Source: a virus. Taken from it: 29,844 nucleotides of DNA. Location: the IMG/VR virus record IMGVR_UViG_3300042549_000395, positions 1 through 29,844 of that record. One strand, 5' to 3'. Made by a program: the position numbers and the translations under genes. A model generated the notes under the pieces. That model was given only the letters and a program-made list of their open reading frames with translations, was not told where the DNA came from and ran no database searches. Positions 9,144-10,579 of the stretch are shown here, piece by piece; position 1 is the first letter of the stretch, and every line of letters starts with the position of its first letter.

Positions 9144-9329
9144 ATGGCTACCTATCGTTGCATTCAGAGTGGTAATACGGTCACGTTCACACTGCCGCAC
9201 GACATCGAGACAATGAAAGGCCACGGCGGATATGTTCTGCTTGATGAGCCTGTTGTTGAGCCTGAAGTAAATGAACCGGCCAAGAGAATGGGCCGCCCCC
9301 GCAAAGTTGTTGAAACTGTTCAGGAGTAA
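9144..9329 (+). CDS. Small protein with AT-hook-like C-terminus
   Basis: A 61-residue protein (MATYRCIQSGNTVTFTLPHD) starting just after the terminator. The N-terminal half looks like a small beta module. The C-terminal part has an acidic stretch and then AKRMGRPRKVVETVQE, where GRPRK is the core of an AT-hook minor-groove binding motif. DNA binding is inference from this core only. It heads a run of very small, basic genes. Confidence 0.7.
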   Translation: MATYRCIQSGNTVTFTLPHDIETMKGHGGYVLLDEPVVEPEVNEPAKRMGRPRKVVETVQE

Positions 9330-9332
9330 ATC

Positions 9333-9464
9333 ATGTACGGAAAAGCACCAAAGATGGCCAAGAAAGCCATGCCAGTCACAGTCGTAGTTGCCGTTGGCAA
9401 GCCAAAGCCGCTGCCCAAGCGCGGCCAGCGCACTGCCACCAACAAGGCGAGCAAGAAGAAATGA
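9333..9464 (+). CDS. Lysine-rich micro-protein
   Basis: A 43-residue frame starting ATG 9333 with CAGGAG upstream. The protein is MYGKAPKMAKKAMPVTVVVA followed by a Lys/Arg/Pro-rich tail ending KASKKK; about one third of residues are Lys or Arg. No family is recognised with certainty. It ends AAGAAGAAATGA and overlaps the next start by ATGA, as do its neighbours at 10135-10146 and 10278-10289. Possible roles (DNA-binding or packaged basic protein) are speculation. Confidence 0.62.
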   Translation: MYGKAPKMAKKAMPVTVVVAVGKPKPLPKRGQRTATNKASKKK

Positions 9465-9508
9465 AAACCAAGGCTGAAAAGAAAATCAGCGCCAATTTCG
9501 CCCTTTAA
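9461..9508 (+). pseudogene. 5' stub of a small basic gene cut by the HNH endonuclease insertion
   Basis: An ATG overlapping the preceding stop (ATGA) opens MKTKAEKKISANFAL and then stops. The first nine residues look like the start of the small basic family found intact at 9988, and the reading frame runs straight into the tail of the antisense endonuclease gene (whose stop is at 9486). I infer that this is the original 5' end of the gene now found at 9988, separated by the inserted endonuclease cassette. The stub may still be translated as a 15-residue peptide. Confidence 0.45.
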
Positions 9509-9989
9509 CAACGGCAGAAATAGCTGAATCAGTTACTCCAAAAGCCTTTGCTAATTCAGTCTGACGCACAAGTTCATTGATATGCAAATACCGAATTGCA
9601 GCTACGCATCGTTCCGAAAGAACGGCTCGACCGTTATTTTCATGCCAATGCGTCTTATGTTTTTTGGTGTCGGCGTAATTCTGTTCAACAGAACCGTATG
9701 CAAGATTTGTAGCTTTATTGTTATACCTGTCACCGTCAAGATGCCGAATAACAAGCCCATCTGGGCGAGGGCCAATGAATACTTGCGCAACCAACTTATG
9801 TATGTAAAGCGATTTTTGCGGTTTTCCATCCAAAGATTTGACAGAAACACTCAGATACGGCGTTTTAGAGTTCAACTTTCTAAGCTGACGCCCATCTGGT
9901 AAAAGTTTTGCAAATCTGCCATGATTGCTTACTTCATAAAAATCTTCGTACCCAGGAACTTTCACCCAACTTTCAACGAGGTCTGACAT
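9486..9989 (-). CDS. HNH homing endonuclease (NUMOD4 + HNH_3 + C-terminal HTH)
   Basis: A 167-residue protein. Residues about 8-45 match the NUMOD4 pattern (WVKVPGYEDFYEVSNHGR). Residues about 60-105 are an HNH_3 nuclease (YIHKLVAQVFIG, then RHLDGDRYNNKATNLAYGS, with His64, His83 and Asn90/91). Residues about 125-165 form a helix-turn-helix ending in the typical VKGRNWR. Such enzymes cut unoccupied alleles and spread by repair. It is the only antisense gene in the structural block, is visibly more AT-rich than its neighbours, and overlaps the plus-strand start of the next gene. CTGGAG lies 8 bases upstream of its ATG. Acquisition by transfer is inferred from strand and composition. Confidence 0.92.
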   Translation of the reverse strand: MSDLVESWVKVPGYEDFYEVSNHGRFAKLLPDGRQLRKLNSKTPYLSVSVKSLDGKPQKSLYIHKLVAQVFIGPRPDGLVIRHLDGDRYNNKATNLAYGSVEQNYADTKKHKTHWHENNGRAVLSERCVAAIRYLHINELVRQTELAKAFGVTDSAISAVVKGRNWR

Positions 9990-10146
9990 GGCGACTACTC
10001 CAGAACAAAAAAAGAAGATTAGAAAAGTATATCAGGAATTTAAAGACAAGACTCTGCACTCGGGCAAGGGCGGCAAAGTCGTCAAGAACCCCAAGCAGGC
10101 CATCGCCATCGCGCTGTCGCAGGCTGGAAAGGCGAAGAAGAAATGA
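9988..10146 (+). CDS. Small basic phage protein (DUF6496-like)
   Basis: A 52-residue protein from ATG 9988, with GAGG six bases upstream. It reads MATTPEQKKKIRKVYQEFKD, then TLHSGKGGKVV and PKQAIAIALSQAGKAKKK. The LHSG...KQAIAIALSxAG pattern is that of a small family (DUF6496-like, from memory) found beside structural genes in many phages. Its first 12 residues partly mirror the stub at 9461 (AEKKI versus EQKKKI), so the gene may have been re-started by sequence at the insertion edge. Its ATG overlaps, on the opposite strand, the start codon of the endonuclease gene. Confidence 0.75.
   Translation: MATTPEQKKKIRKVYQEFKDKTLHSGKGGKVVKNPKQAIAIALSQAGKAKKK
10026..10034 (-). promoter_or_regulatory. 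Possible extended -10 promoter for the HNH gene
   Basis: On the minus strand TGATATACT gives a TGn-extended -10 box (TATACT) about 37 bases upstream of the endonuclease start. No good -35 is seen. It lies inside the coding region of the gene at 9988, so it could be fortuitous. Confidence 0.3.
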
Positions 10147-10289
10147 AGCCCGGTCTTTACGCCAACATTAACGCCAAGAAGGCCCGCATCGCTGCGGGTT
10201 CTAAAGAGAAGATGCGTAAGCCTGGCACAAAAGGCGCGCCGACACTCGCCGCTTTTAAGCAGTCTGCCAAGACTGCCAAGAAGAAATGA
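10143..10289 (+). CDS. Small basic conserved phage protein
   Basis: A 48-residue frame, MKPGLYANINAKKARIAAGS, followed by KEKMRKPGTKGAP and a tail ending AKTAKKK. The KPGLYANI-xxK-xxRIAAGSKEKMRKPG pattern is one I recall as a recurrent small protein in phages and prophages, of unknown function, often with lysine-rich tail. Both ends are ATGA couplings: it starts inside the preceding stop and ends inside the next start. Net charge is strongly positive. Confidence 0.75.
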   Translation: MKPGLYANINAKKARIAAGSKEKMRKPGTKGAPTLAAFKQSAKTAKKK

Positions 10290-10579
10290 AAACGCCTGCT
10301 TGGCAACGAAAAGAAGGCCAAGCCAAGACGGGGGGCTTGAATGCCAAGGGCCGTTCGTCTTATAATGCCGCAACCGGTGGCAGTCTCAAAGCCCCGGTCA
10401 AGTCAGGCGACAACCCTCGGCGGGCCTCCTTTTTAGCACGGATGGGCAACATGCCCGGGCCTGAGTACAAGGATGGTGAGCCTACGCGGCTTCTGTTGTC
10501 CTTGAAGGCTTGGGGCGCGTCGTCCAAGACGGATGCCAAGGCAAAAGCCAAGGCCATCTCAGCCAGGAATAAGAAATGA
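10286..10579 (+). CDS. Conserved small basic protein (DUF6321-like)
   Basis: A 97-residue basic protein with the very characteristic core GGLNAKGRSSYNAATGGSLK, then SGDNPRRASFLARM and GMxGPEYKDGxPTR...SLKAWGASSK type sequence. From memory this is the DUF6321-type family shared by many podoviruses; its role is unknown, although the position among head genes suggests a virion or packaging role. It ends in a lysine tail (ARNKK) and overlaps the next gene by ATGA. Confidence 0.82.
   Translation: MKTPAWQRKEGQAKTGGLNAKGRSSYNAATGGSLKAPVKSGDNPRRASFLARMGNMPGPEYKDGEPTRLLLSLKAWGASSKTDAKAKAKAISARNKK

Follow-up and report, generated by a model that had tools for sequence, protein, structure and literature searches.

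By the usual view, homing endonucleases enter genes harmlessly as passengers of introns or inteins, or else settle between genes. A different outcome is described for the mORF elements of fungal mitochondria, found in atp6 of Allomyces and in atp6, atp9, cox2 and nad3 of Glomus (PMC3630166). Here, a free-standing endonuclease comes with a foreign gene terminus, the native terminus is displaced beyond the insert, and a hybrid gene results without splicing (PMC3630166). The locus studied here shares these features, and the mORFs are its closest precedent by function. They replace, however, the C-terminus, and their endonuclease is of the LAGLIDADG or GIY-YIG type, has the same orientation as the gene and can be in phase with it (PMC3630166). 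In contrast, our locus is from a phage and concerns an N-terminus, the endonuclease is an antisense HNH protein, the two starts overlap, and the signals of each gene are nested in the coding DNA of the other. That is, the cassette works like a mORF terminus-replacement element but is not a member of that group.

Among phage systems, the cassette resembles the T4 seg/mob HEGs in its patchy occurrence and its transfer with flanking DNA, and T4 segG in having control signals embedded in endonuclease coding DNA, which favours retention (PMC2988022). Its NUMOD4/HNH_3 protein is like I-HmuI. The free-standing HEGs of T4 lie between genes or split them, but a replacement N-terminus or antisense promoter-coding DNA is not described for them (PMC2988022). 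Aeh1 mobE in nrdA and T4 mobA in gene 60 are, like our case, HNH HEGs that have entered a phage gene and involve neither an intron nor an intein, but there the gene remains two expressed pieces, whereas here it is rebuilt as one (PMC2988022). The HNH gene in the methylase of phage ShiLan is likewise a non-splicing insertion tolerated through overlapping coding; the insert is read through in frame, with the HNH gene on the same strand in another frame and without detectable RBS (PMC11855218). The present locus differs by its antisense HNH gene, the replaced start and a clear Shine-Dalgarno (SD) motif. Our literature search, covering mainly work outside subscription papers, yielded no N-terminal swap by a phage HEG with antisense-coded endonuclease signals, and DUF6496, the gene invaded here, is not named in the literature among the matches listed.

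Layout of the locus and its endonuclease-free counterpart

We studied a stretch of 29,844 nt (IMG/VR record IMGVR_UViG_3300042549_000395; the window). Around the locus, the window encodes a phage capsid protein and an SU10-like adaptor, along with small genes of the structural region; the features of the locus are listed in Table 1.

Table 1. Features of the DUF6496 locus in the window (plus-strand numbering).
Feature	Position	Strand	Remarks
Small upstream gene	9333..9464	+	TGA stop overlaps the stub ATG (ATGA); protein 100% identical in L082
Stub, original 5' end of DUF6496	9461..9508	+	equals the L082 gene to 9490; lineage-specific stubs in other cassettes
NUMOD4 + HNH_3 endonuclease gene, 167 aa, free-standing	9486..9989	-	Pfam; PHROG; 1U3E
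GAGGT Shine-Dalgarno for the re-created DUF6496 gene	9978..9982	+	inside endonuclease codons 3-4
Re-created DUF6496 gene, MATTPEQKKKIRKVYQEFKDKT-LHSGKGG...	9988..10146	+	Pfam PF20106; imported + host hybrid
Imported DUF6496 codons 1-22	9988..10053	+	minimal shared cassette border after codon 15 (10032)
Endonuclease Shine-Dalgarno GGAG	9998..10001	-	CTCC on +, DUF6496 codons 4-5 ('TTP'), 8 nt from its ATG
Putative extended -10 of the endonuclease, TGATATACTTT	10024..10034	-	45 nt upstream of the ATG; antisense of K-V-Y-Q
Next host gene, unaffected flank	10143..10289	+	start overlaps the DUF6496 stop

A sequence-only reading had reported an ATGA-coupled start at 9461 ending inside the tail of an antisense, AT-rich HNH gene, a new ATG at 9988 opening a small conserved protein, and two bases common to this ATG and that of the endonuclease. 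All of these are found. The stub reads MKTKAEKKISANFAL followed by a stop, where MKTKAEKKIS is host DNA (to 9490) and the remainder is endonuclease DNA. Its 3' part overlaps the 3' end of the HNH gene, whose stop codon (TCA on the plus strand, 9486-9488) lies within host-identical DNA (AAATCAGC). The small protein is DUF6496 (PF20106; 52 aa), its GAGGT is five bases ahead of the new ATG, and this ATG (9988-9990) and the endonuclease start (CAT, 9987-9989) have bases 9988-9989 in common. The HNH gene has a GC content of 42.5%, and the imported codons on the 3' side of the shared start (9990-10053) have only 33%, compared to 60% for the remainder of the DUF6496 gene and 56% for the window. The arrangement recurs with 100% identity on a second contig (L161/L172). 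The product of the next host gene is basic, has 48 aa and no Pfam match, and is kept in most relatives.

The endonuclease matches PF07463 (NUMOD4; 3e-9) and PF13392 (HNH_3; 6e-10), both above cut-off, as well as the I-HmuI structure 1U3E (E=4e-13). The H...N...N catalytic region (RHLDG..(R/K)(Y/F)NN...NL) is invariant or near-invariant in six relatives and also aligns to 1U3E. By these domain and catalytic-region matches, the protein classifies as an I-HmuI-like HNH homing endonuclease, and omega values of 0.06-0.26 between relatives indicate purifying selection. Relatives from bacterial genomes are 27-41% identical; at such loci, a scan for stubs and start repeats placed even known positives barely above shuffles. 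Similar DNA sought in annotated phages gave only unrelated short matches. Distant HNH protein matches are present in 1281 annotated records, and the match adjoins DUF6496, among the matches listed, only in cyanophage S-CBS4 (two records).

The earlier reading had also predicted an endonuclease-free relative with one intact gene. A capsid search found it in L082/L006, which lack the HNH gene (98% identity for the capsid, 100% for the upstream gene and 97% for the downstream one). L082 carries a single intact DUF6496 gene, MKTKAEKKISKVMREYKAGG-LHSG, whose start is the window's stub. Aligned to L082, the window shows unbroken identity through ...AAGAAATGAAAACCAAGGCTGAAAAGAAAATCAGC (9490), resuming at CTGCACTCGGGCAAGGGC (10054). 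Between these joints, L082 carries AAGGTCATGCGCGAGTACAAGGCCGGCGGC, such that its gene reads MKTKAEKKISKVMREYKAGGLHSGKGG..., while the window carries the antisense HNH gene and a different set of first 22 DUF6496 codons, MATTPEQKKKIRKVYQEFKDKT. The flanks are about 90% identical over 0.8 and 1.5 kb, and identical beside both joints. From this comparison, the stub is the former start of the host gene and the re-created gene is a hybrid; i.e., the alignment assigns the ATG at 9988 to the insert and the stub at 9461 to the host's old start.

The two N-termini had looked like versions of the same sequence, and the empty allele rules out a chance similarity. The right junction had been expected at about 10015; it lies at 10054 in the window phage and directly after codon 15 in the best-resolved other pairs. 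An HNH-free locus with both a stub and a separate TTP-type start, which would speak against the insertion, is absent among about 109 distinct HNH-free DUF6496 alleles. The idea that the host gene is kept by a start codon and SD supplied by the cassette edge gains support, and the alignments indicate that the insert brings more than start codon and GAGG, namely replacement codons 1-15 or more.

Occurrence, mobility and borders of the cassette

From metagenomic contigs, HNH searches recovered some 15 distinct cassettes related to that of the window, with HNH identities of 59-100%. On every contig that reaches far enough, the HNH gene is found on the opposite strand immediately ahead of DUF6496, and the two are linked by a CATG start overlap. 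Most left flanks have a stub of the local lineage type, namely MKTKAEKKIS in the window, MKKTKAEAKISKV in L002, MKKAEAKISKV in L166, MKMTKAQKKV in L174 and MKMTKAEKKVG in L183; the left flank of L183 is 98% identical to that of the HNH-free L125. The cassettes of L003, L186-L191 and L185 have no stub, so these insertions are considered intergenic. In L003 and L186-L191, the cassette lies between a terminator-like hairpin, which is behind a terminase-like gene, and DUF6496. Plausibly, this stubless intergenic type is the ancestral donor form. The DUF6496 gene itself has more than one location, namely the interval from capsid to adaptor or, in L003 and L186-L191, the region following the large terminase (called by eye from the SPDMADAFVLTF motif). 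Since it occupies different genomic places, DUF6496 itself is taken to be the target.

We compared cassettes and flanks. In the pair L163/L164, the HNH genes are 98.4% identical at nucleotide level compared to 79% for the capsid and 64% for the adaptor. L002 and L166 show 99.4% HNH identity with zero synonymous divergence while their stubs differ, and L174 and L177 combine 100% identical HNH genes with different left flanks. Mapping the cassette onto quick trees requires 9 label changes for the capsid and 11 for the adaptor (strongly supported branches alone force at least 8 and at least 10, respectively). Because the loci were sampled through homology, their frequencies are not to be read as estimates. 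These comparisons indicate that the cassette moves between lineages independently of its flanks.

The borders are sharp in the best-resolved pairs. L163 and L164 are 100% identical over DUF6496 codons 1-15 (to GTATAC) and agree at 61/90 positions thereafter, and the same border pattern is observed for L174/L178. The left joint is at AAGGT or immediately before. Placed from these borders, the target would be KV^M, i.e., between AAGGTCAT and GCGC. The window's own endpoints differ, with the left joint a few codons earlier and the imported tract reaching codon 22, as expected if recombination endpoints vary.

Other sequences also occur at DUF6496 loci. L021, L022, L040, L051, L064 and others have about 320 extra bases, not HNH, between the gene corresponding to 9333 and DUF6496, which is probably a gene of about 100 codons. 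L045, an HNH-free DUF6496 locus, shows a weak HNH-family profile match (E=4e-4; from 884 onward, plus strand) that is not adjacent to DUF6496.

The best match among phage records is the cultured Synechococcus phage S-CBS4 (HQ698895; gp017/gp018), with an HNH protein 40% identical to the window's. In the record, gp017 and gp018 are annotated separately and their link is unremarked. Like in the window, a stub, an antisense HNH gene upstream of DUF6496 and a complete new DUF6496 gene are found, with the joint at the same KV/M codon. The stub, MTSKQKQAKVRKV plus stop, is encoded by ATGACATCGAAGCAGAAGCAAGCGAAGGTGCGCAAGGTT-TAG ahead of the HNH stop and ends at KV, and the new gene reads MSLKQKRQKIARVLREF / MSLKQKRQKIARVLREFKAG. 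The empty relatives L253/L255 read MTSKQKQ(A/S)KVRKVMREF, i.e., MTSKQKQ(A/S)KVRKVMREFKAG. They are 92-94% identical to S-CBS4 in the left flank and 94% in the right flank from codon 16, but only 53-56% over codons 1-15. The S-CBS4-type arrangement is seen again, with other stubs, in L246-L249. The stub ATG of L247 is ATT (compared to L246), from which we conclude that the stub is expendable and can decay freely.

In contrast to the window, the promoter-like sites of this family are not inside the gene but in a 40-nt spacer between the two start codons, which holds a conserved TGnTAnACTTT (minus strand) and TTGCTAGAAT (plus strand). The latter is perfectly conserved across L245-L249, such that two promoter-like sites face each other within 40 nt. 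In sequence, the two motifs resemble divergent extended -10 elements; for S-CBS4, endonuclease transcription is predicted to start about 7 nt after TGCTACACT (minus strand) and DUF6496 transcription after TGCTAGAAT (plus strand). As far as the alignments tell, this is the same outcome at the same codon in a distant HNH family.

Probable dual use of the imported codons

Every cassette has, with minor variants, the imported start M(K/A)(T/A)TPxQ...K(I/V)xKVY (shortened to MMSPKQKEKVAKVY in the L003 group), while none of about 109 HNH-free alleles has it. KVY is found in 16/16 cassette alleles; at the same residue, the HNH-free alleles (n=108) have M (103), L (3) or Y (2). The two HNH-free KVY alleles, L088 and L147, use the codons GTT/GTC TAC, unlike those of the cassette, and may either resist cleavage or be left over from a lost cassette.

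Two parts of this start carry signal-like sequences on the opposite strand. There, the codons ACT-CCA yield GGAG, which stands 8 nt ahead of the endonuclease ATG. At that distance, 84% of the cassettes have an SD motif vs. 3% of the HNH-free alleles. Similarly, AAA-GTA-TAY-CA reads antisense as TGRTATACTTT, which is extended -10-like and 42-45 nt before the endonuclease ATG. In antisense, the imported codons have an invariant TATACTTT, in most cases as an extended -10 (TGnTATACTTT). TATACT is found in 16/16 cassettes compared to 2/109 HNH-free alleles, and the full TGnTATACT in 13/16; the TG at the right spacing is missing in two of the 16, and one other has the G only. Within the whole window, TGnTATACT occurs once, at the putative endonuclease -10. 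The -35 region of this putative promoter is not conserved. A sigma-70 consensus scan gave no match there, since it requires a -35 box. For the reverse direction, GAGGT or AGGAG for DUF6496 lies inside endonuclease codons in most cassettes and is weak in four.

The cassettes share ancestry, i.e., 16/16 are not 16 independent trials. A comparison of third bases among ten divergent cassettes corrects for shared ancestry only partly. GTA has the same third base in 10/10, and AAA does not vary either. In contrast, at 17 fourfold-degenerate HNH positions where the amino acid is invariant, not one third base is shared by all ten. Because these bases are fixed while HNH fourfold sites vary, the simplest explanation for the M to Y exchange in the host protein is a need at the DNA level, i.e., promoter and/or loss of the target. 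Given their sequence, the imported codons would serve the endonuclease, in antisense, as SD and probably as extended -10 promoter. Since HNH-free alleles almost never have the SD or TATACTTT, the imported start appears to be both an endonuclease expression signal and a new N-terminus.

Alternative readings, proposed mechanism and implications

The strongest competitor takes the endonuclease as an ordinary free-standing HEG upstream of DUF6496 and the replaced start as a mere co-conversion tract from a divergent donor, with no role of its own. Co-conversion of flanks is normal in homing (PMC2988022), the window's imported tract extends to codon 22 and thereby past the minimal border, and an HNH gene between terminator and intact DUF6496, as in L003/L186-L191, is the expected donor layout. 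A neutral tract, however, would vary in length and origin between events, while only cassette carriers have the TTP-xQ...KVY start, with no instance among the approximately 109 HNH-free alleles. Furthermore, its SD and TATACTTT bases do not vary, against saturated synonymous sites in the rest of the cassette. We thus hold this explanation to be unlikely, albeit one to be taken seriously. Less credit still is given to the view that the endonuclease itself binds or nicks DNA at the invariant AAAGTATAY, which would then not be a promoter. The motif lies at the presumed cut site, I-HmuI-type HNH enzymes have long recognition sites beside the insertion point, and I-HmuI nicks both alleles. Yet it is missing from the very empty alleles that would need to be recognised (present in 2/109), and in the S-CBS4 family TGnTAnACTTT is in a spacer outside the gene, beside the divergent TGCTAGAAT.

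Two readings invoke known ways of living inside a gene. If the locus were a split gene as in Aeh1 mobE/nrdA, both the stub and the body would be produced and work together, and most carriers indeed retain the stub's ATGA-coupled start and DUF6496 frame. But the body gene has a complete N-terminus covering the same residues, the stubs (10-19 codons) end in unrelated endonuclease codons, several carriers have no stub and one stub has no ATG, which makes this very improbable. The stricter form with two complementary, non-overlapping pieces was rejected, since the N-terminal residues occur twice and the stub is lost or start-less in some carriers. A group I intron or intein in DUF6496 had already been dismissed by the sequence-only reading, and we see practically no chance for it: HNH endonucleases of the I-HmuI kind are often intron-encoded, but here the HNH gene is antisense, stops and a new start stand between the parts, the N-terminus is duplicated rather than interrupted, and an Rfam scan over 9200-10400 (E up to 1) gave no match.

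The account that we consider highly probable is an antisense HNH homing cassette that replaces the start of DUF6496, with the gene rebuilt as one polypeptide. Comparison of the sequences shows empty and filled alleles, a replaced start, mobility between lineages, exact borders, and conservation of the SD and TATACTTT; it also finds the arrangement again in many lineages, as well as in a second HNH family (S-CBS4). For the process itself, we infer that the empty gene is cut at KV^M and repaired from the filled allele, that the promoter is active and that the recoded site is immune. The cassette's target would lie towards the 5' end of DUF6496 genes, around the codons K-V-M, where the endonuclease would nick or cut the empty allele at KV^M, near AAGGTCATGCGC (between AAGGTCATG and CGC). 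The gap would be repaired from a filled phage, on the right side via the gene body and on the left via the stub region or microhomology (AAGGT). The product would be a cassette with recoded start, in which the foreign first ~15 codons replace the native start, which in turn is left as a dead stub on the left side. The gene would be whole again, i.e., without intron, intein or split subunits. The imported codons may have three jobs: encoding the new N-terminus in sense, providing the SD and probably the extended -10 of the endonuclease in antisense, and altering the presumed target (KVM to KVY).

Because the DUF6496 ribosome-binding site is in endonuclease codons 3-4, the two genes would be locked together and the insert hard to lose. 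That is, DUF6496 needs the cassette's start codon and RBS, such that clean loss should be hindered, as argued for the T4 segG promoters (PMC2988022). We further lean towards, with some reserve, a splicing-free rescue strategy: the DNA upstream of the endonuclease, with promoter, leader and SD, would have evolved to encode, on the opposite strand, a functional and cleavage-resistant N-terminus of the invaded gene, while the gene's RBS is inside the endonuclease. If true, insert and target are inseparable without breaking the gene.

The striking point is the double use of DNA, with a putative antisense promoter and an RBS fixed inside codons. 'Home and rescue' is a design of synthetic gene drives, and the cassette would be its natural counterpart. 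S-CBS4, a cultured phage with empty relatives, offers direct access to homing. For bacterial viruses, the locus would add another route into coding sequence, in which the endonuclease supplies its own start of the invaded gene.
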